Part shown: positions 190-38,925 of the stretch, one piece after another | Layout of the letters: every line of letters begins with the position of its first letter | Position numbering within the stretch: the stretch's first letter is position 1 | Assembly: GCA_031265495.1 (NCBI GenBank) | Contig: JAISCP010000148.1 | Span: forward strand, 1-38,925 | Source of the DNA: Heliobacteriaceae bacterium | GTDB taxonomy: Bacteria > Cyanobacteriota > Vampirovibrionia > Gastranaerophilales > Gastranaerophilaceae | Direction: 5' to 3' | DNA length: 38,925 nt | Notes under the pieces: generated by a model | What the model was told of the DNA's origin: nothing | The model's database searches: none | What the model saw: the letters and a program-made list of their open reading frames with translations, nothing else | Position numbers and translations under genes: made by a program

Positions 190-218
190 ATTATACTGTT
201 TTAATAAAAACTTGTCAA
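190..218 (-). promoter_or_regulatory. Sigma70-type promoter, TTGACA-17 nt-TATAAT, reading toward the 70..153 ORF
   Basis: Minus strand TTGACA (218-213), 17-nt spacer, TATAAT (195-190); both hexamers match consensus. Confidence 0.7.
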
Positions 219-3758: not shown

Positions 3759-4445
3759 ATGAAAAAGAGGGATTTAGGATTTACACTTGCAGAGGTGCTG
3801 ATAACACTGGGGATTATCGGTGTTGTGGCGTCGCTGACCATGCCCGCTCTTATTTCTAACTACAAAAAACAGCACACAATTACGGGGTTAAAACGTGAAT
3901 ATGCGGTTTTGGCACAAATGGTTAAGCTTTCGCAGGCAGATAACGGCAACTTTGACGAATGGGATTGGAGTTTGAATTTAGCTGATTTTGTAAACGCCTA
4001 TCTGGCTCCGTACCTGCAATTAATCAGGAACTGCGGCATAACAGATAATACCTGCTGGCTGCCGGATAGTAAAATATACGATACAAACGGCAATGCTAAG
4101 TATGATACGACATCTGCAAATTATTACACAGGAGTGCTAAACAACGGTACTTATGTTGCGTTTGAGAAGCAAGACAATAATCACCTGCACTTTTACATTG
4201 ATATTAACGGAGCCAAACGGCCGAATAAGCTCGGAGTAGACAGTTTTCTTTTCACATTTACAAGAGCTCCGTTTCTTGAAACGGGTGTACATAATATTAG
4301 TCATTCAGGATTACATTTTTATGCACAGGGGATGCCAACAGCAAACCACGTTTCAAATTGCAAAAAGGCAAGTACAGGCACTCATTGCGGAGCATTATAT
4401 GTACAGAGCGGCTGGCAAATCCCCGATAGTGTGGATATATTTTAG
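3759..4445 (+). CDS. Prepilin-like protein with type III-like/IV N-terminal methylation motif (GFTLAEVLITLGIIGVVASLTMPAL)
   Basis: Clear prepilin N-terminus; RBS AGGAG. Confidence 0.8.
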   Translation: MKKRDLGFTLAEVLITLGIIGVVASLTMPALISNYKKQHTITGLKREYAVLAQMVKLSQADNGNFDEWDWSLNLADFVNAYLAPYLQLIRNCGITDNTCWLPDSKIYDTNGNAKYDTTSANYYTGVLNNGTYVAFEKQDNNHLHFYIDINGAKRPNKLGVDSFLFTFTRAPFLETGVHNISHSGLHFYAQGMPTANHVSNCKKASTGTHCGALYVQSGWQIPDSVDIF

Positions 4446-6692: not shown

Positions 6693-7925
6693 CTAATCTG
6701 TAATATAAGACTGGAACAATGGCAGATACAATGCTGACGCCAGAACTAATACGATACCTCCGATTACGATTAACATCAGAGGTTCAATCATTTTGGTAAT
6801 GGCATCTACAATGTTATCAAGCTTTTTATCAATATAAGCCACTGCCTGCAAAAGCATTTCACCCAAACGTCCTGACTGCTCTCCGGTAGCAATCATGAAC
6901 AAAATCATTCTGGGGATTACATGAGTGGCCCGCAGCGCAACCGACAGGTGCTGTCCCTGCTGAACCTTCAATGCAGCGCCTTCTATGCTTGTTTTTAAAA
7001 CATAATTTGTAAGCGTCATATTCGATAAATACAAGCACTCAATAATGGGAACACCCGCGTCATACGCAACCTGCAGCACCGCTATGAAATTTGAAAAATT
7101 TGAAAACTGAACCATATCGCGCATAAGAGGAATTCTTAAAGAAAGTGCATCAATCATTCTCTTTGAAGGTCCCCAGTTGAACAGAAATATTGCGGAACCG
7201 ACTATGGAAAACAGTATTACCGGCGCCATAAACCAGTAAGTTTTCAGGAAAACCCCCGCATCCATCAAGACTTGCGTAATCCAAGGCAGTTGTTTTCCCA
7301 TATTATCAAACATATCCTTGAAAGTAGGGAATACAAACATTAACATAACAAGCACTATTACAATAGCAAGAAGTATTACGAACGCCGGATACATGAGCGC
7401 TCCGATAACTTTACCCTTAATTGCGGCTTCTTTCTGCTGAAGCTCCATCAAACGTTCGAGAGTTTTTTCCAGTTCGCCGGAATCCTCACCCGCTCTGCAC
7501 AAGCCTATATAAATCTGGCCAAATTGCTGCGGATATTTCGCAATCGTATCGGAAAAAGTTGAACCGGCTACAATCTGTCTTCTGAGTTCTTTTGCCACTT
7601 TTCTGACTCTCGGTCTCGCCGCATCGTTTTCTATAAACATCAGAGACTCAATAATCGGAATTCCCGACTGCGCAAGAATTTGCATTGTTGATGTAAAATC
7701 CATACGTTCATCAAGAGTAAGCTTATCAATACGTCTGGCTTTCGTGTTTACAACCGCCGGAGTTTTATCCTCTATGGCGCTGGCTATATCCTCAAGAACT
7801 TTTGTCGGGACAAAACCCATATTGCGAATATTCTCGCGCGCTTCCCGAAGACTTGCCGCTTCTATTTTGCCCTTAATTATATCCTTGTTGTCTTTTAAAG
7901 CTGTATAATTGTAAATCGCCATCAA
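6693..7925 (-). CDS. Type II secretion/type IV pilus inner-membrane protein F (GspF/PilC-like)
   Basis: Two GspF-type domains; AGEDSGELEKTL and ATGEQSGRLGEML. Confidence 0.9.
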   Translation of the reverse strand: MMAIYNYTALKDNKDIIKGKIEAASLREARENIRNMGFVPTKVLEDIASAIEDKTPAVVNTKARRIDKLTLDERMDFTSTMQILAQSGIPIIESLMFIENDAARPRVRKVAKELRRQIVAGSTFSDTIAKYPQQFGQIYIGLCRAGEDSGELEKTLERLMELQQKEAAIKGKVIGALMYPAFVILLAIVIVLVMLMFVFPTFKDMFDNMGKQLPWITQVLMDAGVFLKTYWFMAPVILFSIVGSAIFLFNWGPSKRMIDALSLRIPLMRDMVQFSNFSNFIAVLQVAYDAGVPIIECLYLSNMTLTNYVLKTSIEGAALKVQQGQHLSVALRATHVIPRMILFMIATGEQSGRLGEMLLQAVAYIDKKLDNIVDAITKMIEPLMLIVIGGIVLVLASALYLPLFQSYITD

Positions 7926-7933
7926 TAACTTCC

Positions 7934-9922
7934 TTATTCGTTCACAACGCCAAGCACACGGATAAATTCATCAACCGTTGTTTTACCGGTAAGGATATGA
8001 TTAAGGCAGGATTTGCCCAGAGTTATCATCCCGTTTCTAACGGCAATTTCTTCAATATCCATGTCATGCGCGCCCATTGCGATTAACTTTCTAATCTCTT
8101 TGGTCATCGGCATAATCTCATATAAGCCCATACGGCCTCTGTAACCCGTAAAGTTACAATGGCTGCAGCCTTTAGGCCTGTAAATGGTTTTTGTAATAAA
8201 TTCCTCAATCGCAGCTTCATCGGATATAATTTTGCCTGCTTCTTCGCGTGTTGCAAAATATTCTTCCTTGCAGTCATCACAGAGGCTTCTTACCAATCTT
8301 TGCGCAATTACGCCGGACAGCGTTGAAGCTACCAGATAATCTTTTGCGCCCATTTCAATCAAACGGGTAATCGTTGCCGCAGATGAATTCGTGTGAACCG
8401 TGCTGAACACAAGGTGCCCTGTGAGCGCCGCTGCTATTGCAATTTCGAGTGTCTCATAGTCCCGGATTTCACCGACCAGAATAATATCAGGATCCTGTCT
8501 TAATATTGCACGCATAGAGGAAGCAAAGGTTATACCTGCCTTGTTGTTAACCTGCGACTGGTTAATACCCTCAAGCCTGATTTCTATCGGGTCTTCAATC
8601 GTGGTGATATTGACGTTTTCACCGTTCAAATGCTTCAGGACAGAATAAAGCGTTGTGGTTTTTCCCGAACCCGTAGGACCTGAGGTTAAAATAACACCGT
8701 TCGGACAGGTTATCATGTCTCTGATTTTTGCAATATCTTCCTGCGTAGCGCCCATAATCTCAATCTGTCTGTTGTCGGCGTCCAAGCTTACCGCAGGTGC
8801 AAGAACACGGATTACGACTTTTTCCTTGCCGGAAATTGAAAGCGTATTTATACGAAAGTCATAAGACAGCTCTTTATATTTAATAGTAAACGTACCGTCC
8901 TGCGGCCGTCTGTGCTCGGCTATGTTCATTCTGGCAAGAACTTTAAAACGGGCAATAACAGCGCTTTCCACCTTTGGCGGAATATCAAGAACTTTGCGCA
9001 GCATGCCGTCTTTGCGGTAGCGCACTATGTAACCGGAAAGACGCGGCTCTATGTGTACGTCGGAAACCTGCGTATCAATGGCAGTGGTGATAATCTGGTT
9101 AACAAACTTTGCTACGGAACCGGTTGAATCCTGCAATTCACTGTCAACCTGATCCCATAAGCTTTCCTCTTGTTCAATTTCCGCAGTTTCTTCTTCAATC
9201 TGGCTGATAATTTTTTGGGTTTCTTTTTTCTGTGTACTGAAAAACAAATCCATAGCATCCGCAAATTCAACATGTGTCATAAGCACTTGCTTAGGATTTT
9301 GTCCGGTAAGGTAGATAATCTCTTTTAATATATCCTGCTTAACAGGGGATATGACTCCTATGGTCAATGTTTTTCCGTCAGAAAAAATCGGAATAATATT
9401 ATTGGTTCTGATGAAGTCTTCCGGCAGTAAACTTATGAACTGTTCCTGCTCGTTCAGCTGCTCGGGAGTAACCATATCCAGTCCGGTTTGTAATTGCAGA
9501 ACTTCTTTTAACTGTCTGAGCGTTATAAATCCCAATTTAAATAAAGTCGAACCTAAAGGCGTTTTCAAACGTTTACTTTCGGCAAGCGCCTGCAGCAGCT
9601 GAACATCCGATATGTAGCCTCTTTGAATTAACATATCCCCGATTTTGGTGCTGCCGTCATTTGATGCATTTAACTTAACAACGTCAATAAGCTCGCTCAA
9701 ATCCTCATCGGGAATCTGCATAAACTTAACCTGTTCGGAAAAATAGCCTTTCAGATGCGCGTTGATGGTATCTTTATCAGACTGTGAATTGACTGCAACA
9801 TACAGAAAATTATTTTTCAAATTTATCGGAACAAATCCGTGCAGTTCAAATAAATTGCCTTCTAATCTGCTTATTACCTGGGGGTTTATACTGTTTTTTA
9901 ATCTGTTTAATACTTCGTTCAT
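7934..9922 (-). CDS. Type II secretion/type IV pilus assembly ATPase (GspE/PilB-like)
   Basis: Walker A GPTGSGKTTTLY, Asp box, Walker B ILVGEIRD, His box, C-x2-C zinc motif, N-terminal MshEN-like region. Confidence 0.92.
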   Translation of the reverse strand: MNEVLNRLKNSINPQVISRLEGNLFELHGFVPINLKNNFLYVAVNSQSDKDTINAHLKGYFSEQVKFMQIPDEDLSELIDVVKLNASNDGSTKIGDMLIQRGYISDVQLLQALAESKRLKTPLGSTLFKLGFITLRQLKEVLQLQTGLDMVTPEQLNEQEQFISLLPEDFIRTNNIIPIFSDGKTLTIGVISPVKQDILKEIIYLTGQNPKQVLMTHVEFADAMDLFFSTQKKETQKIISQIEEETAEIEQEESLWDQVDSELQDSTGSVAKFVNQIITTAIDTQVSDVHIEPRLSGYIVRYRKDGMLRKVLDIPPKVESAVIARFKVLARMNIAEHRRPQDGTFTIKYKELSYDFRINTLSISGKEKVVIRVLAPAVSLDADNRQIEIMGATQEDIAKIRDMITCPNGVILTSGPTGSGKTTTLYSVLKHLNGENVNITTIEDPIEIRLEGINQSQVNNKAGITFASSMRAILRQDPDIILVGEIRDYETLEIAIAAALTGHLVFSTVHTNSSAATITRLIEMGAKDYLVASTLSGVIAQRLVRSLCDDCKEEYFATREEAGKIISDEAAIEEFITKTIYRPKGCSHCNFTGYRGRMGLYEIMPMTKEIRKLIAMGAHDMDIEEIAVRNGMITLGKSCLNHILTGKTTVDEFIRVLGVVNE

Positions 9923-9971: not shown

Positions 9972-11825
9972 TTATAATGTTTCTGTGTTGACTATGGAAT
10001 CTTCCGAATCAGTGATTATCTTCGGAGTAATCATGATAATCATTTCTTCTTTACTTTTTTCGGTAAGCGTGCTTCTGAAAAATGTTCCCAACCCCGGAAT
10101 GTCTCCCAAAATAGGAACTTTCTTAACGTTTTTGGTTTCATCTTCACGAATCATACCGCCTATAATAAGAGTCTCTCCGTCTTTAATCCGGACATTTTTA
10201 AGATCAAGATTTCTTCTTTGAAGCAGGGTTGCCTGCGGAATAATATCGCCGGAAGTATCTTTGGTTGTTACGCGGTCTTTAATAGTTGCGTATTCGGGAG
10301 CAATGTTAAGCGTAACATAACCGTCAGGGCTTATAAACGGCGTTATGGAAACCTTAATACCGTTGTCGTCCGCTATTTCATAAGTCCTCTGAACAGCGCC
10401 CGCCAAAGAACCGGCAAGAACTTCCGACCTTACTGATTTAACATAATCAGAAGTCAAATCAATTGTAGATTCCTGTCCGTTGGTTATTAAAATACGCGGA
10501 TTTGCCACAACTCTGCCCTTTCTGTTTTCTATTAAGTAATTAATAGTATATTGAACTACCGGACTGCCCGAATATTTTGCCAGATTAGGCATGTTGGGGT
10601 TCTTGCTGCCGGCAAAGAATATAGGATAACCCGGATCGCCTTCTTTAGCCGGAAGAATATTACCTGTTTTGCCGTTGTTGAAGCTTGCGGAGAAAAATCT
10701 TGTATACATTTCCCAAGTATTATCAAGAGTTTTACTTCCCGCTTCACTCAGTTCTATAATTGAAACTTCCAAATAAGCCTGCGGCTGTTTTTTATCTGTT
10801 TTTGCAATAAATTCTTTAATCATTTCAACCTGCTGCTCGGAACCGCCGATAACATTAACCGTCCCCAGCTGGGTGTAATACGAAACCGAAAGGCTCCGAA
10901 GCGCAATAGATGACAGTGCGCCGGCTTCTGTTTTTGACTCATAAGAACATGCTATGGTACCTTCATTTAGAGAAATATCACCGCCGCCGCTGCTGCCGGA
11001 GCTGCTGCTGCTGCCGCTGCCGAAACCGCTGCTGCCGCTGCCAAAACTGCTGCTTGCCGCGCCGGTCATAATTCCGGCCGCGCCGCCTGTTGAACTTCCT
11101 TCAATGCCGAGTGCGTTCGGAAGTAACAATTTACATACCATATCCGCCATTTGCGCGGGAGTTGTATGATTTACCTTAAAAGCCGCTGTTGTCGGTTTTT
11201 TATCAAATTTGGCGACAACTTTTCTTGCAATCGCAACTTCATTTTGCGTGCCGAAAATCAACAATTCATTAGTTGCAGGGTTTGTTACGGCAACTTCTCC
11301 GCCTGAAATACCCGGTTTATTTATACCGTAAATGTTTTTATTCAAAAAACCCGCTATTGTTGTTGCATCGACATATTTAACCGGAATTGAGGTTAATTCC
11401 TGCTTAGCTACGTTAAAATCTTTAACAGATGTGGGCGCTATGATGATTGTATTTCCGTCCAGAACATACGTCAGCCGGGAAATCTCCATAATCAGTTCAA
11501 AAGCCTTATTCAGAGGAACGCTGACTAAATCCAGCGTTACGGTCTGGTCTTTGACCTCGGGGTGCAGAATAATGTTCAAACCCGCTTTGTCCGCAAACAT
11601 TCTCAAGACTTGGGTAACATCGGATTCTCTAAGACTGAGAGTAATCGGCGTGTTCTTTTTCGTGATACTGATTTCACCTTTAAGCGGCATTGACTCATCC
11701 TGAATTGCTTCCCGCAGCGCAGGCTGGGAATAAGTATCCTGCGTTGCCGGCACTGAAGCGCCGGTAAACAAAAATGCCGTTAAAATTGAAAATGTAGTGA
11801 TTTTTTTTGTAATGTTATTTTTCAT
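9972..11825 (-). CDS. Secretin (GspD/PilQ-like); start placed at MKNNITKK rather than the longer ORF start
   Basis: STN-like/N domains and C-terminal secretin core (VPILGDIPGLGTFFRSTLTEKSKEEMIIMITPKI); RBS GGAG before 11825. Confidence 0.88.
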   Translation of the reverse strand: MKNNITKKITTFSILTAFLFTGASVPATQDTYSQPALREAIQDESMPLKGEISITKKNTPITLSLRESDVTQVLRMFADKAGLNIILHPEVKDQTVTLDLVSVPLNKAFELIMEISRLTYVLDGNTIIIAPTSVKDFNVAKQELTSIPVKYVDATTIAGFLNKNIYGINKPGISGGEVAVTNPATNELLIFGTQNEVAIARKVVAKFDKKPTTAAFKVNHTTPAQMADMVCKLLLPNALGIEGSSTGGAAGIMTGAASSSFGSGSSGFGSGSSSSSGSSGGGDISLNEGTIACSYESKTEAGALSSIALRSLSVSYYTQLGTVNVIGGSEQQVEMIKEFIAKTDKKQPQAYLEVSIIELSEAGSKTLDNTWEMYTRFFSASFNNGKTGNILPAKEGDPGYPIFFAGSKNPNMPNLAKYSGSPVVQYTINYLIENRKGRVVANPRILITNGQESTIDLTSDYVKSVRSEVLAGSLAGAVQRTYEIADDNGIKVSITPFISPDGYVTLNIAPEYATIKDRVTTKDTSGDIIPQATLLQRRNLDLKNVRIKDGETLIIGGMIREDETKNVKKVPILGDIPGLGTFFRSTLTEKSKEEMIIMITPKIITDSEDSIVNTETL

Positions 11826-11844
11826 AGCTTCTCCTGCTTTTTTA

Positions 11845-12510
11845 TTACTTTCTGTTCTTTGTTCCGCCGAACTTACTTTCCAAATTGGAAACCGTGTTAT
11901 AGTTAAGTCCGTCCGTAGCAAATAATTCGCCGACTCCGGCTTTGTAAATATTTTTTCCTAATTGTACTGTAACATTTGTTTTGCCAATTGACAAAACTTT
12001 ATAATTATGAATATAATCACCTGATCTTACAAGGTAATCAGAACCGTCTAAATTAATAATTGCGGAAGGATTATACTGGTCGTACAAAATGCCGGTAACT
12101 TTGGTATTAATGACATTGGACGCGTCAGAGTCAATCGTAATATTATCGGGCGGAGCTATCATATCGGAAGATATATAATCTCCCATAGTTTCAAATCCTC
12201 CTGCGTCGGGTACGAACGGATTAACGCGGCCTATGCCGTCAATGGTTACCGCAACCGTCTTGTCTCCCGAGCCGGGAATATCTCCTGCAATGCCGGCTTT
12301 AATTCCGTCATTTCCTATGGTAACCGACTCTTGGGATTCAGGAACACTGAGTTCCTCCGAGTCGTCTTTTTTTTGCGTACATCCTGTTGTATTAATCAAT
12401 ATGACAATCAAAAACAACGCGGCAAAAATCAGGCCAAGCTTCCTGTTTAGGCTTTGGAAACTATTTTTGTTATTTTCTTTGGCATATCTTTCTATAAAGT
12501 TTTCGTTCAC
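11845..12510 (-). CDS. PilP/GspC-like pilus assembly protein
   Basis: N-terminal hydrophobic segment with TTGC, C-terminal VTGILYDQYNPSAIINLDGSDYLVRSGDYIHNYKVLSIGKTNVTVQL; upstream of secretin. Confidence 0.6.
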   Translation of the reverse strand: MNENFIERYAKENNKNSFQSLNRKLGLIFAALFLIVILINTTGCTQKKDDSEELSVPESQESVTIGNDGIKAGIAGDIPGSGDKTVAVTIDGIGRVNPFVPDAGGFETMGDYISSDMIAPPDNITIDSDASNVINTKVTGILYDQYNPSAIINLDGSDYLVRSGDYIHNYKVLSIGKTNVTVQLGKNIYKAGVGELFATDGLNYNTVSNLESKFGGTKNRK

Positions 12511-13056: not shown

Positions 13057-14616
13057 TTATTTCTTGTTTTCAAGCTTCAGAAGCTTTGCTTCCAGAGCTT
13101 TATTTTGTTTCAATATATCATTCTGAACTCTCGCCATGTCATCCTGAACCTGTTTCAGCATTTTATTTTGCTCTTTTAGTTCTTTATTTTCTTTTTTAAG
13201 CGTCGCAATGTCGTTACGAACTCCCGCCACGTCATTCTTAACGGAAGCAATGACATCATTTATTTTCTTATCCAACTCTTTTACTGCATTGACTAAAGCA
13301 TAGAGAATGTCCTCTGTGCGAACCGCCAAAAATCCACCGGAACCTTTGCTTACCGCGTCAGGAAATATTTTCTGTAAATCCTGCGCAATTACGCCGACTC
13401 GCGGTGTTTTTGCCTTGTCGTCTTTAAGGGTGTAATTGAATACTTTTATCTGTTTAATCTTTTCAAGCCCGCTGGTGTTTTCGCTTTTAATATTTTTCAG
13501 GCGTTTATCGGAGGTAACCTGTGTTCCGCCAACATAAAGGCTGCCGGGTATATAAACAGTACTGTTGCTTACACCTATCCACACTTGATTTGCGTCGCTG
13601 GTTTTATCATCCTCAATGCTGGTCGGTCCTGCACCTATTCCTATACAGGTCTTGTATGAACCGCTGGTTACGTTATAGCATGCATTATAACCCACACCGG
13701 TATTATAACTCCCTGCGGTGTTATACAATGCATTATCCCCCAAGCCGACGTTAGCACCACCTGCGATGTTGTTATACAATGCATTACGACCCAAGGCGGT
13801 GTTATTACCCCCTTCGGTGTTGTTATACAATGCATAATGCCCCACGCCGGTGTTTTGCCCCCCTTTGGTGTTGTTATACAATGCATAATACCCTAAGCCG
13901 GTGTTATTATTCCCTCCGGTGTTAGAACGACCTGCATAATTACCGGTAAATGTATTGTAACTCCCGGTAGTGTTAGAGTAGCCTGCAACAGTACCGATAA
14001 AAGCATTATTAGAACCGCTAGTGTTAGAATAGCCTGCGTAATTACCGAGGAAAACATTATGATGACCTGTGGTGTTGGGATAGCCCGCAGCATGACCAAT
14101 AAAGACATTATTATTCCCGGTAGTGTTAGAATAACCTGCAGTATTACCTATCGCTGTATTATAACCGCCGGATGTTCCGAGATTTGCCAACGCCCCCAGA
14201 CCAAAAGACGTATTATAAGACATCTTATTAGCCGGAACACTTCCAAAATACATATTTGTATTGTCTATGTACAAACCTGCATTGGCAGTACCGCTTTGAT
14301 TTTTAAAAAGCATGTGGTTTTGTGCGGCTGCTCCTTTTTTTAATATCAAACGGGCATTGTCATCATCTGCTTTGCTGTTAGCTCCTATGACTACATTTTC
14401 TCCGTAATATATACCCGGACCGTTCGCGGTCAATTCGCTCCACAGCGACTCGCCGCCTGAACCGCCGGAGCTTTTCATCCGGCGCGTCATCATAGGTGCA
14501 AACGCCGCCAGCATTATCGCCAATATCAGCAGAACAATCATCATTTCAGCCAGCGTGAATCCTCTGTCTGAATATTTATTATTAACTTTTCGATTTTGCA
14601 TCACCATGCTAATCAT
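13057..14616 (-). CDS. Prepilin-like N-terminus + Asn/Gly-rich tandem repeats + C-terminal S74/endosialidase-type intramolecular chaperone with coiled coil
   Basis: GFTLAEMMIVLLILAIMLAAFAPMM; repeats such as 'NTAIGNTAGYSNTTGNNNVFIGHAAGYPNTTG'; SDKRLKNIKSENTSGLEKIKQIKVFNYTLKD...RVGVIAQDLQKIFPDAV...LYALVNAVKELDKKI. Confidence 0.85.
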   Translation of the reverse strand: MISMVMQNRKVNNKYSDRGFTLAEMMIVLLILAIMLAAFAPMMTRRMKSSGGSGGESLWSELTANGPGIYYGENVVIGANSKADDDNARLILKKGAAAQNHMLFKNQSGTANAGLYIDNTNMYFGSVPANKMSYNTSFGLGALANLGTSGGYNTAIGNTAGYSNTTGNNNVFIGHAAGYPNTTGHHNVFLGNYAGYSNTSGSNNAFIGTVAGYSNTTGSYNTFTGNYAGRSNTGGNNNTGLGYYALYNNTKGGQNTGVGHYALYNNTEGGNNTALGRNALYNNIAGGANVGLGDNALYNTAGSYNTGVGYNACYNVTSGSYKTCIGIGAGPTSIEDDKTSDANQVWIGVSNSTVYIPGSLYVGGTQVTSDKRLKNIKSENTSGLEKIKQIKVFNYTLKDDKAKTPRVGVIAQDLQKIFPDAVSKGSGGFLAVRTEDILYALVNAVKELDKKINDVIASVKNDVAGVRNDIATLKKENKELKEQNKMLKQVQDDMARVQNDILKQNKALEAKLLKLENKK

Positions 14617-38772: not shown

Positions 38773-38913
38773 ATGAAAAATCAAATTACGGGACGGAATA
38801 TTTCAGGTAAGACGTTTGGGTCGGAGTCAAGTGCCGGAAATACAGGTGTAGTGTCACTTTCGGGGGGGGGGGGGGGCTTTATAACAGCTTCCGGCAAGGC
38901 TTTCAGCCCGTAG
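38773..38913 (+). CDS. Small ORF with poly-G tract (MKNQITGRNISGKTFGSESSAGNTGVVSLS-GGGGG-FITASGKAFSP*), possibly phase-variable
   Basis: RBS GGAGG 8 nt upstream; G15 tract 38862-38876; homologous to the 70..153 ORF on the opposite strand. Confidence 0.4.
   Translation: MKNQITGRNISGKTFGSESSAGNTGVVSLSGGGGGFITASGKAFSP
38862..38876. repeat. Homopolymer G15 tract
   Basis: Direct reading. Confidence 0.9.
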
Positions 38914-38925
38914 ATAATAAACCTA

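Follow-up and report, generated by a model that had tools for sequence, protein, structure and literature searches.

The poly-G open reading frames (ORFs) found at both ends of the stretch analyzed here are, with a probability of about 0.82, the starts of type IV prepilin genes under a homopolymeric G switch, and so part of a large phase-variable pilin set. This reading draws on the leader family, its frames, promoters and Shine-Dalgarno sites, the pilin fusion, the length differences between near-identical copies and the conservation across genera, all of which are read from the DNA itself. The leader family lies in or beside Candidatus Gastranaerophilales. The stretch, referred to as the window, is the whole of contig C12 (38,925 bases), from an assembly of 2.05 Mb in 153 contigs that is 95% complete.

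The proposed mechanism is as follows. The ribosome would start at a well-placed ATG, read a short conserved peptide and then enter the G tract. If the length of the tract falls into the right class (mod 3), the frame would be kept across the remaining leader, which in-frame palindromic repeats enlarge here, and into an A or G followed by FTLAEVLITL, and the prepilin peptidase could take off the leader. Tracts of the other two classes would lead to a stop within a few codons and to no pilin. Replication slippage of the tract could then turn each of roughly 25-33 pilins randomly on or off. Slippage in the cell, translation, processing of the long leader and display on the surface would be expected from this arrangement.

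The Two Poly-G Leaders of the Window

The sequence-only reading had described one poly-G ORF at 38773 (+) and another at 153-70 (-), and both are present, with the sequence and the product of each length class as described. The right copy is a predicted leader ORF of a phase-variable prepilin gene (38773-38925, + strand), homologous to ~33 leaders in the genome. It starts at the ATG at 38773 and, with the tract as assembled, its product ends in ...GNTGVVSLSGGGGGFITASGKAFSP before a stop. The tract (38862-38876, + strand) is a G15 homopolymer, that is 0 mod 3, and lies out of the expected pilin frame, the ON class being assigned from sibling loci. Tracts of class 1 mod 3 would leave the frame open up to the contig end (LYNSFRQGFQPVDNKP), and those of class 2 mod 3 give an immediate stop. 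The class 1 frame, LYNSFRQGFQP, corresponds to LSNGFLQGFPP, which in intact copies leads into the pilin. On the 3' side of the tract, a conserved block common to other copies (CTTTATAACAGCTTCCGGCAAGGCTTTCAGCCC..., 38877-38925, + strand) is cut by the end of the contig, and the pilin part of this copy would lie beyond it. The right copy sits directly 3' of a 159-aa ORF and has no standard promoter block.

The left copy (MDKMFKKGCNAGVVPLS-Gn; 70-153, - strand) reads outward from the contig and contains a G20 homopolymer (84-103, - strand). Starting at 153, its observed product is ...VVPLSGGGGGGALTV and a stop, and class 0 mod 3 would give GFNGVGKG.... The 83 bases available before the contig end contain no pilin. 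This copy has a Shine-Dalgarno site of its own and a promoter at 190-218 (- strand), with a -35 box TTGACA (218-213), a 17-base spacer and a -10 box TATAAT (195-190); the same block precedes most copies.

A Dispersed Leader Family

The two copies had been proposed to belong to a multi-copy family, and a 20-base match had been noted before their tracts. The match is real and far above chance, and a search with a 159-base consensus returned 35 places in the genome, with E values from 9e-68 to 3e-4. Together with a BLAST search of the right copy, this places the window's copies among ~33 leaders. A phage origin was considered and rejected, as 50,697 phage records gave no match. Aligned, the leaders share the layout TTGACA-17-TATAAT, ~20 bases, AAGGAGG, ATG, 15 codons, G11-G22 and then CTTTCTAACGGCTTCCTGCAAGGCTTTCCGCC. 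The promoter of a typical copy is sigma-70-like, and the conserved peptide starts are of the M-REVFKNGCNAGVAPLS or M-DKTIKNGYNAVIEALS types. The tract lengths, which as assembled may err by one or more, are 14 (11 copies), 15 (five), 16 (four), 18 (four), 17 (three), 20 (two), 22 and 11. Per-class translations bear out that the tract lies inside the translated frame and that its length mod 3 sets the C-terminus.

The further suggestion that such copies break the assembly was also correct. A contig end follows within ~215 bp downstream in 13 of ~33 leaders, where ~0.5 would be expected for 153 contigs and 2.05 Mb. Contigs, including both ends of C12, stop at leader loci because leaders and repeats are common to the copies, and pilins without a leader start at the ends of C64, C60, C75, C25, C149 and C26. 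Two contig ends look like artefacts, probably of failed assembly at such tracts: C75 starts with G65 (L073) and C112 ends in a mixed C/G/T run (L074). An in-frame G11 was also observed at ~1204 of L076 (G000:C11:11203), within a frame of 270 codons whose product is similar to electron transfer flavoprotein beta (KLGGGAEVTALTMGP); it is possibly a further contingency site, or else chance.

The Reading Frame from Leader to Pilin

A pilin lies on the same contig as 19 of the leaders, and 15 of these loci, chosen because they are open, were taken as intact. In all 15, the frame of the leader ATG runs without a stop into a type IV prepilin (FTLAEVLITL...) for exactly one tract-length class. The leader of this ON class places 72-186 codons ahead of FTLAE, and 200-500 aa follow where the contig is long enough. 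The connecting frame of the 15 loci has no stops in 1558 codons, whereas 175 (5.7%) of the 3092 codons in the other two frames are stops. Such a stop rate over ~100 codons would leave almost no open loci, so that 15 open loci of 19 are notable despite the selection. The other four (L043, L048, L049, and L054) connect in no class. The ORFs, which the sequence-only reading had treated as stand-alone with meaningful short tails, thus appear to be the 5' leader parts of type IV prepilin genes, and the relevant frame is the one that opens into the pilin. The homopolymer is placed where its length would decide the frame of expression, as in a contingency locus.

The conserved block is followed on its 3' side by palindromic repeats, e.g., CGTCATTGCGAG...CGACGAAGCAATCC, and then by a prepilin start such as AAFTLAEVLITLGIIGVVAALTMPAL. 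This repeat is dispersed over at least 40 places in the genome, and where it lies inside a leader it is always on the strand of the pilin. At L047, L050, L055, L060, and L072, and at L118 of genome G124, the pilin start is interrupted by palindromic repeats that have a copy of the AFTLAE coding sequence on either side, as though insertion had re-created the cleavage site. The leaders are long, with 72-186 aa here and ~20 to >50 aa in most relatives, and so depart from the usual prepilin leader, which is short and cytoplasmic, has roughly 5-30 aa and is far shorter than those of this genome.

Pilins and Pilus Machinery

The genome contains 81 prepilin N-termini (N_methyl places). Most have an ordinary short leader and a Shine-Dalgarno start within ~20 codons, including the two in the window: a type IV prepilin (N_methyl) without G-tract (3759-4445, + strand) and a fusion of a prepilin with a Peptidase_S74 (endosialidase chaperone) domain (13057-14616, - strand), a body type also encoded at G-tract loci. 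The 16 prepilins bounded by a G-tract have no Shine-Dalgarno start near the pilin, with the exception of L063, which has one in frame 3 codons ahead of it. Pilins linked to G-tracts have the type IV prepilin N-terminus, a G or A followed by FTLxE and a hydrophobic helix; most score above the PF07963 cut-off, and that of C62 is just under it. According to Pfam, bodies of ~310 aa have an end like Lcl_C that stays below the cut-off, those of 420-570 aa have Peptidase_S74, and one of the ~215-aa bodies has DUF6613. AlphaFold gave a poor model (pLDDT 59) for a G-tract pilin from a relative, and searching the PDB with it was uninformative.

The window also encodes components of the pilus machinery, namely a type IV pilus/T2SS inner-membrane protein (PilC/GspF-like, T2SSF; 6693-7925), an assembly ATPase (PilB-like, T2SSE and MshEN; 7934-9922) and a secretin (PilQ-like; 9972-11921), all on the - strand. 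A prepilin peptidase (Peptidase_A24) is present in the genome.

Two features of the pilin bodies were observed in addition. The prepilins at 13057-14616 of the window and at L045, L047, L058, and L074 combine a repeat stalk with the Peptidase_S74 chaperone domain, resembling phage tail fibres. The ~310-aa G-tract pilins of L061, L055, L046, L065, and L072 have a C-terminal Lcl_C-like (C-type lectin-like) part, in which a loop region varies by copy. Diversification of these ends by a DGR was rejected, as the genome has no reverse transcriptase (no PF00078 match).

Occurrence in Related Genomes

A search with the 159-base consensus did not recover the exact leader of this genome from the other two genomes of its genus. 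The device is nevertheless common across the taxonomic family, and the motif MTTTC-G10+ turns up in 72 of 383 genomes (19 of 41 genera), far above the reversed control. TTTC-G10+ reaches up to 68 places per genome (G208) and, within the order, is nearly confined to the same taxonomic family. The reversed control is near zero in relatives and is confounded in the own genome, because CTTT comes after the tract.

At 29-30 loci of relatives, one length class joins the tract to a prepilin, and the leader and downstream sequences are unrelated to those of this genome. Examples are MLKRRRRANF-Gn-FLANLLDKKKNA followed by FTLAETLIALG in bacterium RGIG8857, and MKKVYCPVIS-G11-...FG followed by FTLAEV in genome G073. 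In most fused loci the stretch from tract to pilin contains no Shine-Dalgarno site with a start in frame, such starts being present at 4 of 29 loci in relatives. Some relatives have an internal promoter ahead of the pilin, and genera g7 and g22 keep an internal -10 box and ATG. The element TATACTAGTGATATGAAACATCACT, a -10 box combined with a dyad, is conserved between tract and pilin at loci L330-L379 (G058 and G073); its ATG, missing in some copies, could start a leaderless message.

A Possible Attenuator in One Genus

Most loci of genus g11 (G012, G208, and G049; L310-L321 and L380-L399) are not fused. The short ORF at these loci (MQKSLIDRIS-G11) precedes a hairpin and T run, behind which the prepilin has an ATG and a Shine-Dalgarno site of its own. 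This arrangement of leader ORF, terminator hairpin and T run is that of a transcription attenuator. The hairpins are CCGTGCC..GACACGG-TGATTTTT or TCAGCCA..TGGCTGATTTTTT (z -2.1 and -4.1), and only these terminators stand out; folding of the whole g11 leader RNA gave no excess stability (z 0.25). At the observed length, translation would stop 1-2 codons past the tract, and one other class would reach to within ~14 bases of the hairpin or pass through it, suggesting that the opening of the terminator by ribosomes depends on tract length. Across 30 copies, the open frame f1 of G012 and G208 is free of stops but lacks a third-position excess. For the post-tract frame, codon-position tests of selection gave weak or mixed results, and protein-level selection in these two genomes is not claimed. 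There may be a promoter behind the hairpin.

A tentative extension, held with clearly less confidence than the main reading, is that this genus uses a phase-variable transcription attenuator. The G tract would lie in a separate leader ORF of 15-40 codons, upstream of an intrinsic terminator and of a prepilin that has its own ribosome binding site, and pilin transcription would be switched in that only one length class lets ribosomes reach and open the hairpin. The family as a whole would then amount to tens of default-OFF pilin genes per cell.

Tract Length Variation and Alternative Explanations

The variation in tract length observed here is among paralogues and related genomes. Paralogues with 1-5 differences in ~65-80 flanking bases carry unlike tract lengths. 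In one genome, G12 (ON) and G11 (OFF) copies have a single difference over 65 flanking bases; another pair, G10 and G12, also has one flanking difference, and a G15 and G11 pair in the own genome has four. As assembled, none of the 15 intact loci of the own genome is ON (P 0.002 if one third is expected), and 5 of 29 are ON in relatives (P 0.045 on the same expectation), P values that are indicative only, the loci being related by descent. Near-universal OFF is odd for a random switch, and would be consistent with a population that is OFF by default and contains rare ON cells. G012 and G208 have G11 at every one of ~30 analyzed loci, a uniformity that free slippage does not explain and that does not look like hypermutability.

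These observations bear on an unlikely alternative, in which the tract is fixed out of frame and partial slippage by transcripts or ribosomes gives a constant low level of pilin from every locus. Such recoding agrees with the prevalence of OFF lengths, which extends to 35 of 35 attenuator-type loci, and with the invariant G11 of G012 and G208. However, a recoding site would have no need of G14-G22, and the lengths span G11-G22 in the own genome and differ between near-identical paralogues in several genomes. Slightly less probable is that the G-tract ORF encodes an independent regulatory leader peptide or a small secreted peptide, with the pilin made from its own start and the fusion frame incidental. 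The separate start behind the hairpin in g11, the conserved internal -10 box and ATG of g7 and g22 and the start of L063 all point this way, but the scarcity of such starts at fused loci argues against it, as does a frame that stays open across up to ~164 codons of repeats.

Instead of switching frames, the repeated leaders might mainly supply homology for recombination, by which pilin-body cassettes would be shuffled in the manner of gonococcal pilE/pilS. Leaders and repeats are indeed common to the copies, and G-rich DNA is able to promote recombination (Neisseria pilE G4). This is nevertheless improbable: a promoter and a Shine-Dalgarno site come with each typical copy, leaving no split into silent and expressed copies, the role does not need a conserved frame, and the tract context is kept in other genera despite divergent leaders. 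Least credible of all is that the tracts are sequencing or assembly artefacts, such as dark-cycle poly-G. The artefact-like runs at the ends of C75 and C112 could be read so, but tracts lie within contigs, have flanks conserved on both sides and recur in many genomes from independent studies, always in the same gene context.

Significance and Comparison with Known Systems

If the frame-switch reading is true, a common, mostly uncultured gut lineage would be among the richest known users of repeat-driven phase variation, acting on the pilin subunits themselves at up to ~68 tract-bearing loci per genome. It would explain many assembly breaks in these genomes, and would mean that such pilins are missed or cut short in annotation. 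Given the all-OFF bias and the attenuator-like version, one may ask how one or a few pilins get chosen. Pili have been reported in the non-photosynthetic cyanobacterial gut lineage (PMC5877343). A literature search, confined to papers outside subscription, found nothing joining Melainabacteria or Gastranaerophilales with pilin phase variation.

The closest parallels are found in Neisseria. The type IV pilus tip-adhesin gene pilC1 contains a poly-G tract, in which a change from G10 to G9 switches expression from on to off (PMC5231331). In both systems a G run with lengths near G10 lies within the sequence encoding a type IV pilus surface protein, the frame deciding expression. By contrast, the switch described here would act on the prepilin itself, in dozens of copies and in a non-photosynthetic cyanobacterial lineage, and the bodies are N-methyl pilins with Lcl_C, Peptidase_S74 or DUF6613 (Pfam) instead of the PilC/PilY1 type. 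Opa proteins carry CTCTT repeats in the leader-peptide region of ~11 genes (PMC3960869, PMC3745409). They too form a dispersed multi-gene family of surface proteins with a repeat switch in each leader-coding region; the Opa repeat is a pentamer in the signal peptide of an outer-membrane protein, whereas here it is a homopolymer in a prepilin leader.

More distant likenesses exist. The poly-G contingency loci of Campylobacter and Helicobacter, which affect flagellar, LOS and capsule genes, have G8-G12 tracts in ORFs and switch frame. The present loci share tract type and predicted frame switching, but lie in prepilin leaders and reach G22. Rickettsia palindromic elements are inserted in reading frames, and the dispersed palindromic repeats described here are likewise in frame inside coding sequence; they differ in sequence, pile up in the part predicted to be removed on maturation, and some are accompanied by a duplicated AFTLAE. 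The device is not a member of the Neisseria or Campylobacter gene families, but would work like their contingency genes.
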